Assembly (NCBI RefSeq): GCF_006716065.1
Contig: NZ_VFOL01000001.1
Span: 4,402,001 to 4,466,000 of the forward strand
DNA length: 64,000 bases
Source: Salinispora arenicola
GTDB taxonomy: Bacteria > Actinomycetota > Actinomycetes > Mycobacteriales > Micromonosporaceae
Direction of reading: 5' to 3'
Each line of letters starts with the position of its first letter. Position 1 is the stretch's first letter. Made by a program: the position numbers and the translations under genes. Shown one piece after another: positions 42,823 through 55,381 of this stretch. The notes beneath the pieces were generated by a model. That model was not told the DNA's origin and ran no database searches. It saw only the letters and a program-made list of their open reading frames with translations.

Positions 42823-43914
42823 GTGTCCATCGTCGAGGATATCGGTGCGCAAGTGCGCGCCACCGCTGATGACCTGCCGCTCGGCCAACTCGCCAGGGCA
42901 CTCGAACGGTTCGGGCTGGCCGCCGAGCGGCTGCGCTGGGTCCGCCAGGAGTCCGCCAACCCGATGGGCGTCCCGGAACTGTCCAGCGCCCTCGAACACG
43001 CCGAGTCCGCCGGCTACGCGCTGCGAGTCGCCCAGGAACAGCTGACGGCGTACCTGACCGCGATCGGGTTGGCCGCCGACGACTCGTCCGCTCCGCGTGC
43101 CGCCCCCGAACGACGACCGGCGCACGACGCCCCCCGCACCACGTCGCCGGCGACCACCGCGCCCCAGCCGGCCACCGCCGCCGCGCCCCGTTGGTGGGCG
43201 GAACGGGTGGCCGAGCTGACCGGGGGTGGCAAACTGACAGGACAACCAGACGAGGCGATCGCCGACTCCGGCGAACTGCTACGCCGTGTGGTGCACGAGG
43301 TCCGCGCCGGCAACCGGGAACGACTGCGCGCCGAGCTGGGCCGCGCCCACGCTGACGTGGGGCTGGGACTCGCCGCGCTGACCCCGCCCCTGCTGCGGGA
43401 GTTGGCCGGGGAACTGCTCGGACACCCGCCGCGGGCCGAGGACCTGCCCCGGCTCCACCGACAGCTGGACAGCCGGACCCACGACCTGCTGCCCGGCCTG
43501 CCCGCGCCGGTGCTGGACACGCTCCTGGCCCGAGTCTGCCGGATGCCGCCGCCACGCCGGAACGACACCGAGCAGCCACACGCCGCCGACCCGGCGGTCA
43601 CCGCCGGGGTGCTGGCCGGCATCCTGCTCGACCGACTCGGGCGCGAGCTACCTCCCCCGGCGGAACGCGAGCGCCGGACCGACGACGCGCGGGCCCGTGA
43701 CGCAGCGGCGGACGACCGGCGGCAGGCCACGGCGGCTAGGGACCAGCGCACCGACGCCGAGTGGGAACGGCGCGCCGCCGCTGTCGGCCAGCAGGCCGCC
43801 ACCGCCCAGCGGCGGGCCGCCGCGGCCCGCCGGGGCGGCCCGTCCCCGTCCGAACACCGCGCTGGGGCAACCGGCATAGGGCGTCCAGCGTCTCGACGAG
43901 ACACCGATGGCTGA
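42823..43914 (+). CDS. helical coiled-coil protein, second gene of the FtsK-like operon
   Basis: A 363-residue protein of unknown function. It begins MSIVEDIGAQVRATADDLPL from GTG 42823. Residues 1-85 are helical; 90-125 are Pro/Ala/Thr-rich and probably flexible; 130-270 is a second helical domain (ELLRRVVHEVRAGNRERLRAE, LAALTPPLLRELAGELL); the end is a basic coiled coil (DDRRQATAARDQRTDAEWERRA). No membrane segment. It overlaps the ATPase gene by eight bases, so stoichiometric synthesis with the ATPase is likely. Confidence 0.75.
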   Translation: MSIVEDIGAQVRATADDLPLGQLARALERFGLAAERLRWVRQESANPMGVPELSSALEHAESAGYALRVAQEQLTAYLTAIGLAADDSSAPRAAPERRPAHDAPRTTSPATTAPQPATAAAPRWWAERVAELTGGGKLTGQPDEAIADSGELLRRVVHEVRAGNRERLRAELGRAHADVGLGLAALTPPLLRELAGELLGHPPRAEDLPRLHRQLDSRTHDLLPGLPAPVLDTLLARVCRMPPPRRNDTEQPHAADPAVTAGVLAGILLDRLGRELPPPAERERRTDDARARDAAADDRRQATAARDQRTDAEWERRAAAVGQQAATAQRRAAAARRGGPSPSEHRAGATGIGRPASRRDTDG

Positions 43915-46579
43915 CCGGAGGGCGCAGCTCGCGGCTCGCGTCCGGCAGACGCTCGGTGAGGCCCTCGGCGCGACCCGGACCCGGCTGGCCACGGCGCAGA
44001 CCGAGCTGGCCACCGAGCGGATCCGACTGGACCGCATCCGGCGGGCCGCCGGCGCGGTACCCGCGCGGGTCGGTGCGGAACGGGACCGACGCCTCGCCGA
44101 GATCGACGAACGGCACGCGGCCCGAATCGCCGCCCTCTCCCGCCGGGCAGCCGACGCGGCCCGACGGGAGGCGCCGGGGGCGGCTACTGCCCTGTGGCCG
44201 CAGTGGCGCCCCACCCCCGTCCGCCGGGCGGAGCCACCCGGCGCGCTGCGGATCGGAACGCTCGCCGTGCCAGGCGGGGAGCCGGTGCCCATGCTGGTGC
44301 CACTGCTCGACGCCGGCCACGTCGAGCTGACCGGCGTCGACCGGGCGGCGGGCGAGGCGGTGGTGGCCGCGCTGCTGCTACGCGCGGTGGGCCGGGCCGG
44401 GCCGGGCGCTGTCCGACTGACCGGCTACGACCCGGAGCACCTCGGCGGTGGCCTGGCCGGTTTCGCACCGCTGGGCACCGCCGGGTTGCTGACCTTCGTC
44501 GGCCCAGGCGGGCTGGGCCGCCTGCTCGACGACCTCGTCGAGCAGATCCACCGGATCAACTCCACCGTCTTGGCCGGTGAGTACAGATCCCTACGCGAGC
44601 TGGCTGCCTCCAGTGGTCGCCGGCCCGAGCCGTGGCGGGTGGCGGTGTTGCTGGGCGGAGAGGAGCCGTCCCGGCACGAGCGTGGCCAGCTCGACCGGGT
44701 GGTCCGCACCGGTGCGGCGTGTGGCGTACACCTGGTCGTGCGCGGCCTGGCGTTGCCCGACGATCCCACCGTGACCCGGATCGACATCGAATCGGGCCAG
44801 GCCGGGCTTGCCGGCTTCCCACCGGTCGACCTCGACCCAGCACCCCCGGCGGCCCTGGTCACCGAGACCTGCCGAACCGTCGCGACCCGGGTCAACGCCG
44901 GTCCGGCACCCACGCCCTTCACCGACCTGCTGCCGCCGCCGGCCAAGATGTGGCAGGAGGACTCGGCGACCGGCCTGATCGCGCCGGTTGGCGAGGGCCC
45001 GGACGGCCAGCCGGTCGAGGTCACCCTCGGCGACTACCCGCCGCACGCCCTGATCGGCGGTCCGTCCGGCACCGGCAAGACAAATCTGATCTTCGCGTGG
45101 ATTGGTGCGCTCGCTGCCCGCTACTCCCCGGCCGAGCTGGAGTTCTACCTGCTGGACTTCAAGGAGGGCGTGTCCTTCGCACGGTTCGCCCAGGGTCGCC
45201 GCGACCCGAGTTGGCTGCCGCACATGCGGCTGGTCGGAATCAACGTCAACACCGACCGGGAGTTTGGTCTCGCGCTGCTTCGCTTCCTCGCCGAGGAGCT
45301 ACGCCGGCGTGCCGACGCGGCGAAGAAGCACGAGGTCACGAAGCTCGCCGAGCTGCGTGCGGTGGATCCGGCCGGGCACTGGCCCCGGATCGTCGCGGTG
45401 GTCGACGAGTTCCAGATGCTGCTCGCCGGCCGGGACGCGGTCGCCCGAGAGGCCGCCGACCTGCTCGAGGACCTGGCCCGCCGGGGTCGCTCGCAGGGCA
45501 TCCATCTGGTACTCGCCTCGCAGGACGTCCGGGGGATCGAGGCGCTGTGGGGGAGGCCTGCCCTGGTCGCCCAGTTCACCCTGCGAATCGCCCTGCCCAA
45601 GGCGCTACGGATCCTCGCCGAACGCAACGACGCGGCGCAGTCGCTACCCCGCCACCATGCCGTCGTCAACGCCGAATCGGGGTTGGCCGAGGGGAACGAG
45701 GTCGCGCGGATTCCGTCGGCGAGCGACTGGGAAACGTGGAGCGGGTTGCAGCACCGACTGTGGCGGATGCGCCCGCCGGATGCTGCCCCGGCCCGGTTGT
45801 TCGACGGTGACGCGATACCCCGGCTGTCCGACGCACCAGATTTCCAGGCACTGTCCACACCGGAAACCGGGACGGTGCGAGCGCCGACGGCGCTGCTCGG
45901 CGAAATCATCGACGTGCAGGCGCGCTCGGCGACGCTTCGGTTGCCCCGCGCGCCCGGGCGAAATCTCGCCGTGCTGGGCACCCGTGTGGACGAGGCGTGC
46001 GCCGTTCTCGCCGCTGCCGCCCGGTCACTCGCCCGGCAGCACCGCCCCGGAACCGCACGGTTCTCCATCGCCTGCCTGGATCCGGACGCCGACTCGGCCG
46101 CCCGGTCCCTCTTCGCCGATCTCGCCGAAGACGCCGCCTGGTACGACGAGGAAAGCGTCACCGAGTTGATGGCCGAGACCGCCGCCGGACTGGACACCGC
46201 CGGCGTCGGCGACCCGCACTACCTGTTGCTGTTCGCGGTCGACGCCGCGGCCGGCGCGCTCGCCACGCGGGTCGGCGGCCGAACCGGCCTCGAACAGCTA
46301 CGTCGGGTCCTGCACGACGGGCCGGAGCGGCGCACGCACGTGCTGGCCTGGTGGCGGGGTGTCGCACGGATGCGCGCCGACCTGGGGGGGCCGGCGGCGC
46401 GTACCGACCAGATCGGGGCATGGGTGGCGCTCGACACGCACGGCGGAGAACTGGGCACCTCGCTCTACCCCGGCACGGGCGGCCCGGACTGGTACCCCCG
46501 CCCGTGGCGGGGCCTGTTCTTCGACCGGGCGGTGCACCGCACCGGGCAAACGATCATCCCTTACGGACCGCAGCAGTGA
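43907..46579 (+). CDS. FtsK/SpoIIIE-type ATPase with three ATPase-like domains, EccC-like layout
   Basis: An 890-residue P-loop motor. Residues 1-95 are coiled coil (LATAQTELATERIRLDRI) instead of the usual membrane anchor. Residues 110-310 look like a degenerate FtsK domain. The central domain is intact: GGPSGTGKTNLIFAW (Lys391), LLDFKEGVSFARF and IVAVVDEFQMLL (Asp500-Glu501), then ARRGRSQGIHLVLASQD. Residues 650-880 look like a third domain whose P-loop has decayed (LAVLGTRVDEAC). One canonical site among three recalls EccC of type VII secretion, but EccC has transmembrane helices. It might instead move DNA. Coupled to genes on both sides. Confidence 0.85.
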   Translation: MADRRAQLAARVRQTLGEALGATRTRLATAQTELATERIRLDRIRRAAGAVPARVGAERDRRLAEIDERHAARIAALSRRAADAARREAPGAATALWPQWRPTPVRRAEPPGALRIGTLAVPGGEPVPMLVPLLDAGHVELTGVDRAAGEAVVAALLLRAVGRAGPGAVRLTGYDPEHLGGGLAGFAPLGTAGLLTFVGPGGLGRLLDDLVEQIHRINSTVLAGEYRSLRELAASSGRRPEPWRVAVLLGGEEPSRHERGQLDRVVRTGAACGVHLVVRGLALPDDPTVTRIDIESGQAGLAGFPPVDLDPAPPAALVTETCRTVATRVNAGPAPTPFTDLLPPPAKMWQEDSATGLIAPVGEGPDGQPVEVTLGDYPPHALIGGPSGTGKTNLIFAWIGALAARYSPAELEFYLLDFKEGVSFARFAQGRRDPSWLPHMRLVGINVNTDREFGLALLRFLAEELRRRADAAKKHEVTKLAELRAVDPAGHWPRIVAVVDEFQMLLAGRDAVAREAADLLEDLARRGRSQGIHLVLASQDVRGIEALWGRPALVAQFTLRIALPKALRILAERNDAAQSLPRHHAVVNAESGLAEGNEVARIPSASDWETWSGLQHRLWRMRPPDAAPARLFDGDAIPRLSDAPDFQALSTPETGTVRAPTALLGEIIDVQARSATLRLPRAPGRNLAVLGTRVDEACAVLAAAARSLARQHRPGTARFSIACLDPDADSAARSLFADLAEDAAWYDEESVTELMAETAAGLDTAGVGDPHYLLLFAVDAAAGALATRVGGRTGLEQLRRVLHDGPERRTHVLAWWRGVARMRADLGGPAARTDQIGAWVALDTHGGELGTSLYPGTGGPDWYPRPWRGLFFDRAVHRTGQTIIPYGPQQ

Positions 46580-47301: not shown

Positions 47302-48600
47302 TCAGGCGGGTACGGCGACCGCCTCACGGAGCAGGCGGCGCACAAGGGTGACCCGGTCCGTGTCATCGGCCAGACCGGGCAGGTCACCGACCCGGGTGAC
47401 CTCACCGGACAGCAACGCGTGTAGGGCCGGGGCACACTCCTCCGGCAGGGTGATCGTACGGTCGAAGACCCGTAGCGCCACCCGCTGCCCCGCTGGGGCG
47501 AGGTGCCACCGTAGACCCGGGCGGGGAATAACGCGACTGTCCGGGCCGAGCGTGTCCAACGCAGCTGCCTGGGCGAGGGGATGCAGCGGAGCCGGTCGGG
47601 CCGCCGGCCATGCGCGCTGTCTCAGCCGGGCGGCCAGCGTTGTCGGATCCATGTGCAGGAGCCAGTCCCGCAGCACCTCCACCGTTTCGGTGAGCTCGGG
47701 CTCGACCGCGTCCGGGTCGGACACGTCGATGCCGAACGGAAGGGTGGCCCGCAGCCGCTGGTCCTCAGCGGCGAGGGCGAGCAGTTCCTCGACCAGCGTG
47801 TACCGGGTCAGCGCCCGGACTCCCACGGTCAGATGCAGGGAGCTGCGCTCCTGGGCCTGCGCGCTGTGCAGCCAGCCACGGGGAAGGTACAGCGCGTCGC
47901 CGGGGGCGAGCGTCACGTCGAGGGCCGGCGCACCCGTCGCGGTCGCGGAGACCTCGTCGGCCCGACCGCCCCACGGCTGCCGCTCCAGTGGATCGGGTAG
48001 CACCGGGGGATGGATCCGCCAGTGCTTCCGCCCATCGACCTGGAGAACGAACACGTCGTGGGTGTCGTAGTGGGTGGCGAAGCCCTGACTGCCGGCGGGG
48101 GTCAGGTAGGCGTTGATCTGCATTGGCTGCCCGACGTCCAGGCCGAGGTCCCGGGCGAAGTCGACAAGCGCGGGCCAGGTGCGGTGCAGGCCCTGCAACA
48201 CCAGGGTGGCGCCGCCGGCGTACAGGTCCAGGACCCTCTCGTCGAGGACCTGGTCGGCGATCTCGGCGCCCGCACCCCCGCCGCCGGTGTAGCGGGCTGC
48301 CGGCACCAGTGCGCCGTCCTGCGCCACCCTGAGAAAGGGGGTACGCAATCCGCGCCGACTGAGCAGTTCGTCGGCATCAGCCGGGCTCAGCAGGTCGAGG
48401 AATCCGTCCGGGTTGGACAACTCGTCGGCGCGGGACAGCATCGGTGTCCGTCCCCAGTGCGCGGCGGCGAACTTCGCCGGCTCAACCGAGACACACCGGG
48501 CCAGCGCCGACGTGGTACGCCCGGATGGTGCCCGGGGCGCGGTGGTGACGGTCGAGGACGCCGGGCGGCCGTGACCGCCCGGCGAGTCGAGATGGGACAC
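47302..48600 (-). CDS. JmjC/cupin-family 2-oxoglutarate oxygenase (ROXA-like)
   Basis: A 432-residue iron- and 2-oxoglutarate-dependent oxygenase of the cupin_4/ROXA type, whose characterised members hydroxylate arginine or histidine in ribosomal proteins. The iron triad is clear: His177 and Asp179 in FATHYDTHDVFVLQVDG, and His245 in YLPRGWLHSA. KHWRIHPP provides the 2-oxoglutarate lysine region. A C-terminal winged-helix-like part follows, as in ROXA. It starts with GTG 48600 eight bases after the stop of the repeat peptide gene, so that peptide may be its substrate. Function beyond the fold is inferred. Confidence 0.88.
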   Translation of the reverse strand: MSHLDSPGGHGRPASSTVTTAPRAPSGRTTSALARCVSVEPAKFAAAHWGRTPMLSRADELSNPDGFLDLLSPADADELLSRRGLRTPFLRVAQDGALVPAARYTGGGGAGAEIADQVLDERVLDLYAGGATLVLQGLHRTWPALVDFARDLGLDVGQPMQINAYLTPAGSQGFATHYDTHDVFVLQVDGRKHWRIHPPVLPDPLERQPWGGRADEVSATATGAPALDVTLAPGDALYLPRGWLHSAQAQERSSLHLTVGVRALTRYTLVEELLALAAEDQRLRATLPFGIDVSDPDAVEPELTETVEVLRDWLLHMDPTTLAARLRQRAWPAARPAPLHPLAQAAALDTLGPDSRVIPRPGLRWHLAPAGQRVALRVFDRTITLPEECAPALHALLSGEVTRVGDLPGLADDTDRVTLVRRLLREAVAVPA

Positions 48601-48608
48601 GGCCCGGC

Positions 48609-48851
48609 TCAGTCAGCGCTGCCGTCGGCACCACCATCGTGCTGCCCGGGAGTAGCCCCACCGTCGGCCGGGCCCTCCGCACTGCCGTCGGCACCACCAT
48701 CGTGCTGCCCGGGAGTAGCCCCACCGTCAGCCGGGCCCTCCGCACTGCCGTCGGCACCACCATCGTGCTGCCCGGGAGTAGCCCCACCGTCGGCGGGACC
48801 CTCGGGGGCGGCGCCGCCGGAAGTCGTCATGTCGTCGTCGTTGAGTGCCAT
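48609..48851 (-). CDS. 80-residue repeat peptide upstream of the JmjC oxygenase
   Basis: A short protein with a 16-residue head, MALNDDDMTTSGGAAP, then three almost identical 21-residue units and a final Asp. Each unit starts EGPADGGATP and ends GQHDGGADGSA, with a single histidine. The ATG at 48851 has GAGG seven bases upstream. The composition (Gly, Asp, Ala) predicts no fold. The layout of a short head, tandem cores and an adjacent modifying enzyme resembles a multicore RiPP precursor, but no leader homology or cleavage site is recognised. Confidence 0.7.
   Translation of the reverse strand: MALNDDDMTTSGGAAPEGPADGGATPGQHDGGADGSAEGPADGGATPGQHDGGADGSAEGPADGGATPGQHDGGADGSAD
48615..48803. repeat. 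three tandem 63-bp repeats within the peptide gene
   Basis: Units lie at 48615-48677, 48678-48740 and 48741-48803 and differ by only a handful of bases, nearly all silent. Unit length is a multiple of three, so copy number can change without breaking the frame. Confidence 0.97.
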
Positions 48852-49235
48852 GGGTGCTCCTCGGATGTGCCCCGCCGAACGCCGGGGTTCCTCGAACGGC
48901 GGGTGTGCCCCACCTCCGATCCTCCCCACCACACGGTAGCCGCCCCGGGTTTCCGGCGCGGGCGGTTCGCCGGTCGGCCGGCTCAGGTCCTGGCCTCCCA
49001 CCGGACGGGGCCGGGTATTCCGTCCTGCCTATGCCCGCCGTCCGTCGTCGTCGCGCCGCGGCGGACCCACCGGGCCACGGCGCTGCCGTACCGGACTGAG
49101 CCGGCCGGGCCGTGGTGGCCGCGCTTGCCCACCGGACACCCCGACGACGTGCACGACAGCGCCTCGGCGGCGATCCGGTTTCCTCCCCGCCGTCATCTGC
49201 CCAGACACCTCCGATGGTCCATCCGCGGCGACGGG
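48852..49235. other. intergenic region upstream of the repeat peptide gene
   Basis: No credible gene. On the minus strand, two copies of GGGGCACA followed by CCC or TCC lie about 80 to 10 bases upstream of the peptide ATG and could be direct-repeat operator halves. The remainder is very GC-rich with no clear promoter. Confidence 0.4.
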
Positions 49236-52900: not shown

Positions 52901-55192
52901 TCAGCGAGAGTCGGAGCTCAGCCGCCGACCGACCGACGCGATGAGCCGGTCGAGCTCCGAACCGAACGGGTTGTCGTGCACAAGGTACGTCCACGTGGCG
53001 CTCGGTCGGACCAGTTTGGCCTCATCCGGCTCCCAGTCGTCGTCAAAGTCCGTCTCGGTGAATGTCTCGATGGTGCGCCGCTCGATCTCCGGTACCAGGT
53101 CGTTGAACGAGGGCACGGCGGCACGGTGGAACTCGTCAAGCGGATCCAGTCGGCCCAGCGCCCGCAGGTGCACGCCCTCGCGGACCTCGGAGAGCTCGGC
53201 GAGATGCTCGGCCCACAGTCGGTCCAGATGGAACAGCGCGATCGACCGGGCGACCCGGGCAAGGAGATCCTCGTCCATCTCACCCGCCTTGTCCGACACC
53301 TTGTCGAGCAACATCAGGGCGGCGACATCGCTGGTCAACAACCGCTCGCGGCGTTCCGCCAACGCCTTGCGCTGCTGCTCCACCACCACGCTGTAACGCC
53401 AGGTGTTGCGGTGGATCTCGTGGTTGACCCCCTCCGCCACCCGCTGGGCGTGCTCCACGGCGTAGTCCACCTGCGGATCGGTGACCAGGCCGTCGGCGTT
53501 CATCCGCGGCGAGGGCGGCACCGTGTCACCGGCGTGGCGAACAACAAGATCGTCCTGCAGACTGACAAAGAAGACCGACCCACCCGGATCACCCTGCCGG
53601 CCGGCCCGCCCACGTAGCTGGTCGTCGACGCGCCGGCTGTCGTGGCGGCCGCTGCCGATAACGTACAGGCCCCCAAGCTCGGCCACCCGGTCCCGGTCCG
53701 CCTGGTCGCTACCGCCGAGGCGGATGTCGACTCCCCGGCCAGCCATCTGGGTGGAGACCGTCACCGCGCCGTACGCGCCGGCCTCGGCGATGATCGCCGC
53801 CTCCTCGTCGTCGTTCTTGGCATTCAGCACGATGCAAGGGACGTCGGCCGCATCGAGGCCCGCCGCCAGGCTTTCGGACTCCTTCACGTCGAGGGTGCCG
53901 ACCAGCACCGGCCGCCCCCGCTCGTGGTTGCGCCGGATCTCGTCGATCAGCGCCTCCTCCTTCTCCGCCCGCGTCGCGTAGATCCGGTCCGGCTCGTCCT
54001 CACGGACACACGGAGTGTTCGGCGGGACCACCGCCACCTCCAGCCCGAAGAACTCGCGCAACTGGTCGCCGACCAGCACCGCGGTCGCCGTCATCCCGCA
54101 CACGGTCGGGTAGAGCCCGATGTACGCCTGCACGGCGATCGTGCCGAGCACCTCCCCCTCGGCGGTGGCGTCGAGCCCCTCCTTGGCCTCCACCGCTGCC
54201 TGCAGTCCGTCAGGCCAACGGCGGCGCTGCGCCACCCGGCCACGCATCTCGTCAATCAGCTCGACCGTGCCCTCCCGCACGATGTAGTCCACGTCGCGGT
54301 GTAGCAGGGCGTGCGCGTGCAGCGCCACGTTCACCGCGGAGAGCTGGGCGACGTGCTCCTCGTCGTACAGGTCGATACCGAGTTTGGCCTCGACGGCGCG
54401 AAGGCCGTCGGCGGTGAAGGCGACACTGCGACCGTCCTCAGCGACCGTGTAGTGCCGGCCCCTGCGCAGGCCGGGCATCAGCGCCGCAGCGGTGTGCACC
54501 GGATCCTGTTCACCGGGGACCGCGCCGGCGAGGACCATCGGCACCCGGGCCTCGTCGATCAGGATCGAGTCCGCCTCGTCGACGATCGCGGTTCGCAGTG
54601 CCGGCTGCACCCGGGCCTCGGCGTCGGTGACGAGCTGATCGCGCAGGTAGTCGAAGCCAGCCTCGCTGACCGACACATACGTCACGTCACAGGCGTACGC
54701 CGTGCGGCGTTGTTCCGGGGTGGACGCCTCGTTGACCCAGCCGACGGACAGGCCGAGCAGGTCGTAGACCGGCTCCATCCACGTGGCGTCCCGGCGGGCC
54801 AGGTAGTCGTTGACGGTCAGGACGTGCACCGGGCCGTTGCCGAGCCGGACGTGCCCGTACGCGGCCACCGCCGCGGTCAGCGTCTTGCCCTCGCCGGTGG
54901 CCATCTCCGCGACCTTGCCGGACAGCAGCGCCATCGCACCGAGCAACTGCACGTCGTACGGCCGCTGGTCCAGACCACGGTGGGCGGCCTCACGGCCGAG
55001 CGCACAGATCTCCGCATAGCCTTCGGCCTGACCGGCGGCCTCGGTCAACTCGACGTCGTCGAGGACCCGCAGTTTTTCCGACCGTGCCTCGATGGCGGGC
55101 AGAAGTTTCTCTAGTGGCGCGAGGTCGACTGTCGTCCCCGGGCGCTGGAGGAACCGGCGGACCCTGCTCTTCAACCGTTGCGACACACCCAT
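52901..55192 (-). CDS. secA2: accessory preprotein translocase ATPase SecA2
   Basis: The second SecA of Actinobacteria, which exports a small set of proteins. At 763 residues it is shorter than SecA1. It starts MGVSQRLKSRVRRFLQRPG; Walker A is MATGEGKTLTAAV (Lys103), the DEAD box is VDEADSILIDEA (Asp205), and QMAGRGVDIRLGG and DDQLRGRAGRQGDPGG are motifs V and VI. It lacks the C-terminal zinc region of SecA1. No ribosome site is visible before the ATG at 55192, so it may be leaderless; the frame extends to 55330. Clients are not seen nearby. Confidence 0.93.
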   Translation of the reverse strand: MGVSQRLKSRVRRFLQRPGTTVDLAPLEKLLPAIEARSEKLRVLDDVELTEAAGQAEGYAEICALGREAAHRGLDQRPYDVQLLGAMALLSGKVAEMATGEGKTLTAAVAAYGHVRLGNGPVHVLTVNDYLARRDATWMEPVYDLLGLSVGWVNEASTPEQRRTAYACDVTYVSVSEAGFDYLRDQLVTDAEARVQPALRTAIVDEADSILIDEARVPMVLAGAVPGEQDPVHTAAALMPGLRRGRHYTVAEDGRSVAFTADGLRAVEAKLGIDLYDEEHVAQLSAVNVALHAHALLHRDVDYIVREGTVELIDEMRGRVAQRRRWPDGLQAAVEAKEGLDATAEGEVLGTIAVQAYIGLYPTVCGMTATAVLVGDQLREFFGLEVAVVPPNTPCVREDEPDRIYATRAEKEEALIDEIRRNHERGRPVLVGTLDVKESESLAAGLDAADVPCIVLNAKNDDEEAAIIAEAGAYGAVTVSTQMAGRGVDIRLGGSDQADRDRVAELGGLYVIGSGRHDSRRVDDQLRGRAGRQGDPGGSVFFVSLQDDLVVRHAGDTVPPSPRMNADGLVTDPQVDYAVEHAQRVAEGVNHEIHRNTWRYSVVVEQQRKALAERRERLLTSDVAALMLLDKVSDKAGEMDEDLLARVARSIALFHLDRLWAEHLAELSEVREGVHLRALGRLDPLDEFHRAAVPSFNDLVPEIERRTIETFTETDFDDDWEPDEAKLVRPSATWTYLVHDNPFGSELDRLIASVGRRLSSDSR

Positions 55193-55381
55193 GAGCGGCA
55201 ACGGTACGCGACCGGACCGATCTTCAGCTGCCCCGCCTGGCCGAAGGCGCCAGTGGGCGAGCACGACCTGCGGTTCCTTCCCACGGCCACACGGTCGGGG
55301 CGCGGGCGTGGTCGGCTCGACCGACCACATCAGCGAATTCTCCGAAAATACCGCTCTAGCCTGAATAATCCCTCTCGCCTG

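Follow-up and report, generated by a model that had tools for sequence, protein, structure and literature searches.

A repeat peptide gene adjoining a JmjC oxygenase gene in Salinispora arenicola: a conserved gene pair and a putative enzyme-substrate system

We analysed a 64,000-nucleotide stretch of the Salinispora arenicola genome (assembly GCF_006716065.1, contig NZ_VFOL01000001.1, positions 4,402,001 to 4,466,000; hereafter the window), in which a short gene for a repeat peptide lies directly upstream of a gene for a JmjC-type oxygenase. Both genes, and all the features located below by window position, are on the minus strand. The peptide gene (48609..48851, stop codon 48609-48611) encodes 80 amino acids: a 16-residue leader, MALNDDDMTTSGGAAP (residues 1-16, 48804..48851), three 21-residue units, EGPADGGATPGQHDGGADGSA, which are identical at the protein level (48741..48803, 48678..48740 and 48615..48677 for units 1 to 3), and a final Asp. 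The units were delimited by Tandem Repeats Finder (period 63, 2.9 copies, 96% matches, score 349) and by the sequence itself, and any two of the 63-base units are distinguished by 3 or 4 bases, every one of the differences being silent. A ribosome-binding-like GAGGAG (48857..48862) stands ahead of the ATG, and 8 bases separate the peptide gene from the GTG start of the oxygenase gene. The pair has a copy number of one in the source genome (5.63 Mb, one contig). The peptide matched no family in NCBIfam and Pfam, and no publications were found in the open-licence literature for the peptide strings or for "BatC protein", the NCBI name of some relatives.

The oxygenase gene (47302..48600) encodes a 432-residue 2-oxoglutarate/Fe(II) enzyme of the ribosomal oxygenase (ROX) type, assigned by Pfam (JmjC_2, PF08007, E 4.4e-29) and by fold comparison. 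By sequence, the solved structure nearest to it is NO66, followed by MINA53 and YcfD, and the top Foldseek match of the AlphaFold2 model is also NO66 (E 5.2e-28, 25% identity, 450 alignment columns, TM-score 0.66); the mean predicted local distance difference test (pLDDT) of the model is 92.8, with residues 1-27 as the sole low-confidence stretch. The H177 and D179 codons (48064..48072), the H245 codon (47866..47868) and K192 are invariant across 65 aligned relatives, and H177, D179 and H245 are presumably the iron ligands, a role that we assign from knowledge of the ROX family. The protein thus has the JmjC_2 domain, the HxD...H triad and a ROX fold with a winged-helix C-terminus, the winged helix (residues 354-432, 47302..47541) being read from the strand and helix order of the model, not from coordinates. 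Among the best 80 named loci described below, the enzyme is most similar to its counterparts in Micromonospora thermarum (85%) and Salinispora pacifica (84%). Two JmjC relatives, P0126 (595 aa) and P0128 (518 aa), exceed the window protein in length by 163 and 86 residues, apparently at the C-terminus. An earlier note on this DNA, made from the letters alone, had described an 80-residue peptide of three near-identical units eight bases upstream of a ROXA-like oxygenase with a complete His-Asp-His iron site; both descriptions were borne out, the units proving fully identical in protein.

The gene pair is real, widespread and co-inherited. A scan of named Micromonosporaceae genomes confirmed 109 loci, of which the best 80 were kept for analysis, and a homologous peptide gene was detected directly upstream of the enzyme gene and on the same strand in 80/80, some of these loci being cut by contig ends. 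An even sample of the class Actinomycetes (296 genomes) gave an enzyme match in 98, and the upstream region was read in 70 of them, namely the complete group of 50 with E of at most about 1e-64 and 20 of the 48 remaining. The 50 strongest loci carry an upstream peptide with a DGGA core (46), of the DGTD type (2) or acidic and non-repeat (2), and the 20 weaker loci carry TDGDA/DGTD repeats (6), a peptide of 35-37 residues (8) or none of these types (6); the 70 loci together thus comprise 46 DGGA cores, 8 DGTD/TDGDA repeats, 8 peptides of 35-37 residues, 2 acidic non-repeat peptides and 6 without any of these. The reverse search, with the peptide profile, matched 35 of the 296 genomes, and 34 of the 35 matches lie directly upstream of the enzyme gene, the sole exception being G078, where the peptide match is weak (E 9.2e-5) and the enzyme was not matched. 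Both counts speak strongly against the outcome that the earlier note had named as fatal to its proposal, that homologous JmjC genes are never paired with such peptides. A sample of the phylum (198 genomes) returned six matches, five of them inside the class and one weak match outside it (E 6.4e-4).

Within the genus the pair is part of the core genome, nearly universal rather than patchy. The enzyme was matched in 117 and the peptide in 120 of 121 sampled genomes, the presence of each gene, not adjacency genome by genome, being what was counted. The four assemblies in which the enzyme was not matched consist of 590 to 890 contigs, and among the 117 the match is at the 30% level only in G317 (990 contigs) and over the C-terminal part only in G333 and G396. 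For G342 (contig C92) and G369 (contig C28), both of the genus, the listed peptide match and the enzyme lie on different contigs, possibly through a second copy or a split assembly. Most known clusters for ribosomally synthesised and post-translationally modified peptides (RiPPs) are patchy and accessory; the near-universal pair is unlike them in this, which points to a probable physiological role. On a tree of 73 enzymes, from which L108 and L130 (enzyme frame broken) were left out, the type of upstream peptide needs 4 changes, the minimum for five labels, compared with a mean of 23.1 after shuffling; near-copies add to this clustering, and the deep branches are weakly supported.

A division into leader and core is suggested by a similar leader standing ahead of different cores in most of the peptides. 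The leader typically reads L-x-D-D-D-[IM]-x-T, and a loose form of this motif was detected near the start in 110 of the 120 DGGA-type matches listed (of 189; 13 in shuffled sequences) and in 88 of 101 DGTD-type matches (29 in shuffled sequences). Among class-wide upstream peptides the loose motif is present in 38/54 (3 after shuffling) and a second pattern in 34/52. The DGGA peptides that lack the leader motif include those of L114, L117, L122 and L124-L126. In Nocardioides, Marmoricola and their kin the core consists of DADGTDGDATDTTDGD repeats, and in L090, L111 and L116 it is an almost pure DGGA array. In Nocardioides-like actinobacteria (L131-L136, L119 and L129) we found DGTD/TDGDA repeat peptides with a leader resembling that of the window peptide and a different core. 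A shared leader with different cores is the layout of leader-guided modification, though it is not universal here.

The residues kept in the repeat were counted in 271 units from the 80 loci (at least 11/21 identities to the consensus, with a small number of gapped ones from L042 and L059). The 73 complete peptides, which exclude L052, L054, L061, L072 and L081 (leader cut or unmatched) and L042 and L059 (N bases), have 2 to 6 units each. Of the 271 units, 271 have Asp5, 270 Asp14 and 270 Asp18; the neighbouring Gly and Ala are almost equally constant, and their codons vary (Gly GGT/GGC/GGG/GGA, Ala GCC/GCG/GCT). By this silent codon variation with constant residues, and by the recurrence of the gene pair across many genera, the repeat is more than a product of chance. 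Asp is also the common constant across the different cores (DGGA arrays, DADGTDGD, SDGTDSSSDFI), while Pro, Glu and Gln are missing from several of them.

The His position of the unit ranks with the most variable ones, with H in 128 units, Q in 109, R in 31, V in 2 and A in 1. A His is present in 155 of the 271 units and absent from 116, from 19 of the 73 complete peptides and from 84 of the 101 DGTD-type peptides; 111 of the 120 listed DGGA-type matches (of 189) contain one, having been retrieved with a His-containing query. The peptide of Micromonospora avicenniae (L037) is a natural example with no His. On the enzyme side, NO66 holds its hydroxylated substrate His by Tyr328 and Ser421, according to the available part of PMC4556315. 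Counting by hand from the iron ligands in the pairwise sequence alignment, Tyr328 corresponds to Tyr165 here (kept in 65/65) and Ser421 to Gly260 (Gly in 64/65), as would be expected if His is not the substrate. The iron site is therefore intact and the His pocket only half kept; with Ser421 replaced and no conserved His in the peptide, the pair departs in both respects from an NO66-type histidyl hydroxylase and its substrate. The earlier note had observed exactly one His per repeat, which is correct for the window and does not extend to the relatives, and its suggestion that this His is the modified residue found no support in these counts. We rejected His or Arg as the target, and the alignments make His an unlikely one.

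That the peptide gene directly adjoins the enzyme gene and is inherited jointly with it across many actinobacteria makes the peptide a very probable target of modification by the enzyme. We propose, with a probability of roughly 0.55, that the two form a dedicated enzyme-substrate pair in which the ROX-type oxygenase oxidises the repeats at many sites, most likely at the beta-carbon of Asp and probably guided by the leader. The acidic leader would be the recognition part, and the JmjC enzyme would act along the repeated core, the most likely reaction being hydroxylation of the beta-carbon of the invariant Asp in the D-G-[GT]-[AD] repeats. The operon, which belongs to the core genome and is perhaps under stress control, would thereby yield a hydroxylated, polyacidic repeat peptide that plausibly binds metals or cations.

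Several observations weigh against this proposal. The leader pattern is absent from 16/54 class-wide upstream peptides (18/52 by the other pattern), and 6 of the 70 class-wide enzyme loci have no such peptide and 2 an acidic non-repeat one. Gly, Ala and Glu of the repeat (Glu1, Gly2, Ala4, Gly7) are as invariant as Asp, and Asn163 and Tyr165, equivalent to substrate-site residues of NO66, are kept in 65/65. An AlphaFold2 model of the L023 enzyme fused to its own peptide left the peptide disordered, with mean pLDDT per ten residues of 31-43 across residues 1-90, and gave no docking, as a single chain and not a true complex prediction. The strand and helix order of the C-terminal domain in the AlphaFold2 model is compatible with a RiPP recognition element (RRE), while an hhalign comparison of this domain with 19 PqqD sequences reached a probability of only 4.3% (E 0.003; two further regions of the protein gave 0.2% and 0.1%), and against Pfam the domain alone gave sub-threshold matches and none above the cut-off. 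No conserved protease or exporter was found, no family of either kind recurring in more than 4 of the 18 neighbourhoods analysed. The modification itself is putative, being predicted from sequence and models.

Other explanations were weighed against the same data. ROX enzymes are hydroxylases, and this, together with the constancy of Asp across cores from which Pro, Glu and Gln are in part absent, makes a different reaction on the peptide unlikely, be it cross-linking, cleavage of the backbone, an aspartimide-linked change at the D-G steps or the hydroxylation of another residue (Pro, Thr, Glu or Gln). In its favour are the invariance of Glu1, Gly2, Ala4 and Gly7 and the variety of RiPP chemistry, since the available part of PMC12636437 reports a 2-oxoglutarate enzyme that cross-links Cys and Tyr and HEXXH enzymes that cleave the backbone. 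Somewhat less probable is that the peptide is a regulator, chaperone or inhibitor, the target of the enzyme being a small molecule or a different protein, such as a ribosomal protein in the manner of other ROX enzymes. Near-universality in the genus, as for a housekeeping enzyme, the failure of the fused model to dock and the lack of processing genes would fit such a role, but the expansion of the core (2 to 6 units, and long DGGA arrays elsewhere) better suits a substrate with many sites, and the different cores track the branches of the enzyme tree.

Hydroxylation of the His (or Arg) of each repeat, as by NO66, MINA53 or YcfD, we regard as very unlikely: the nearest solved relatives are histidyl hydroxylases, Asn163 and Tyr165 are kept, and more than half of the units and most listed DGGA-type peptides have a His, but the position varies among H, Q, R, V and A, many units and whole peptides do without a His, and the Ser that holds it in NO66 has become Gly. 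That the array is a mechanical repeat or a spurious reading frame without function has a negligible probability. Its GC-rich, 63-base tandem DNA and low-complexity protein are what such a repeat would look like; against it stand the silent codon changes at 80 loci where the residues stay constant, the conserved ribosome-binding site and promoter region, and the 34/35 pairing, and a chance repeat was rejected.

The neighbouring genes were surveyed at 20 loci fetched outside the genus, with the enzyme called in 18 and open reading frame families of at least 100 aa compared. Besides the enzyme itself, one family alone was shared by more than 4 of the 18 loci, that of a PF06999 Suc_Fer-like gene immediately following the JmjC gene in nine (L156-L159, L162, L164-L166 and L168); the assignment was confirmed by Pfam for two (the L111/L115 genes, identical with L164/L165) and made for the other seven by BLAST clustering. 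PF06999 has no match in the source genome. Two further families occur at varying offsets, one in 4 loci and one in 3 (an ABC-type ATPase by eye). Of the usual marks of a RiPP system, a short precursor gene adjoining the gene of a modifying enzyme is evident (80/80 named loci, 34/35 in the reverse direction), and genes for leader removal and export, which are common though not universal nearby, were not found in the 18 loci. A full RiPP cluster was rejected as unsupported, with no protease or transporter family recurring in more than 4/18 loci. The layout of a multicore precursor with its modifying enzyme, proposed in the earlier note, holds for the multicore-like peptide and the dedicated oxygenase and falls short of establishing a RiPP in the strict sense, given the missing protease and transporter and the near-universal presence in the genus. 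The pair would work like a minimal RiPP pair; we do not file it as a RiPP, modification and processing being putative.

A promoter-like element, GGTGGG ... GGGCAC (48905..48930), lies upstream of the peptide gene. It was recognised by comparison with promoters of SigB-type stress sigma factors of Streptomyces coelicolor, for example GTTAGA-N13-GGGTAC, in the available part of PMC8346170. In many Micromonospora the element reads GTTAGA-N14-GGGTAC; the -10-like box in the window is GGGCAC. The pattern GTTA-N~16-GGGTAC, chosen after the alignment had been viewed, was detected upstream of the peptide in 56/66 Micromonospora/Salinispora loci, 7/9 other Micromonosporaceae and about 1% of background windows; it was found in Micromonosporaceae only, with 0/36 in diverse loci. 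The element resembles SigB-type stress promoters, and the operon is perhaps under stress control.

Some observations concern other arrangements. In a distant JmjC branch of the class (about 30-36% identity; L139, L141-L144 and L146-L148, family f18) the upstream gene encodes the conserved peptide of 35-37 residues, MDPIEVEVEDLAEVTSRDITAGGDSDGTDSSSDFI or a close variant, ending in SDGTDSSSDFI or close to that. This gene sits between a prolyl oligopeptidase gene (by Pfam in L139, by eye in the others) and the JmjC gene, and the three genes are possibly a separate RiPP-like system. In the related genomes of L123 and L128, an acidic non-repeat peptide, whose end carries DDPELAGADLDEDQ...GPTIEPGA or a close variant, replaces the repeat peptide. 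In the window, a long FtsK/SpoIIIE-like ATPase gene (43907-46579) and a SecA-like gene (52901-55330) flank the region, both identified by eye.

Taken together, the analysis connects an orphan gene pair, found almost throughout a genus of major antibiotic producers, with a reaction that can be tested. The cores that occur in nature (with one His, without His, pure DGGA and DGTD) already form a series in which the modified residue could be located. If the proposed enzyme-substrate pair is correct, it would represent a bacterial JmjC/ROX enzyme with a repeat peptide as substrate, would help to explain JmjC genes annotated merely as "cupin", and would put RiPP-like logic to the service of what looks like a housekeeping product. 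A broader generalisation, offered tentatively and with the odds against it, is that two-gene "poly-aspartate hydroxylation" systems are widespread in Actinomycetes and form a class not described before, in which a leader-guided JmjC oxygenase would write beta-hydroxyaspartate repeatedly into DGGA/DGTD repeats, yielding a ribosomally made, polyanionic metal-binding polymer that is a core, stress-controlled cell component and not a secreted antibiotic.

Among known systems, NO66, MINA53 and YcfD (JmjC_2, PF08007) share with the present enzyme the overall fold, the HxD...H iron site and Asn163/Tyr165 of the substrate site; the enzyme differs from them in its 25% identity to NO66, in the replacement of Ser421 by Gly and in the linkage to a repeat peptide gene of its own. 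Multicore RiPP precursors have a shared leader, tandem identical cores and a neighbouring modifying enzyme, with counterparts here in the similar leader of most peptides, the tandem units and the adjoining, putatively modifying enzyme, whereas in the present system no proteolysis or export genes were found, the modification is putative and the pair is near-universal in the genus. Beta-hydroxylation of Asp is known in a RiPP, where it is the work of a multinuclear non-haem iron-dependent oxidative (MNIO) enzyme, as stated in the available part of PMC13060819. Fusions of RRE-like folds to PF08007 are described in fish and algae (PMC12710340, mSystems 2025), with a strand-helix order similar to that of the C-terminal domain here, and the same 2025 paper already notes bacterial JmjC homologues (about 30% identity) in "RiPP-like genomic contexts"; its available part names neither the present peptide family nor the repeats, and the similarity to PqqD here has a probability of 4%. 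PbsQ and BipG of biphenomycin-type RiPP clusters are likewise JmjC/cupin oxygenases encoded beside a ribosomal precursor peptide, in which they hydroxylate an ornithine residue (PMC12257519, PMC12707348). According to the available parts of these papers, the ornithine is made there by an arginase-type enzyme, within a large cluster with MNIO and radical S-adenosylmethionine enzymes, a protease and a transporter, in contrast to the two genes, the Asp/Gly repeat core and the core-genome distribution of the Salinispora pair.
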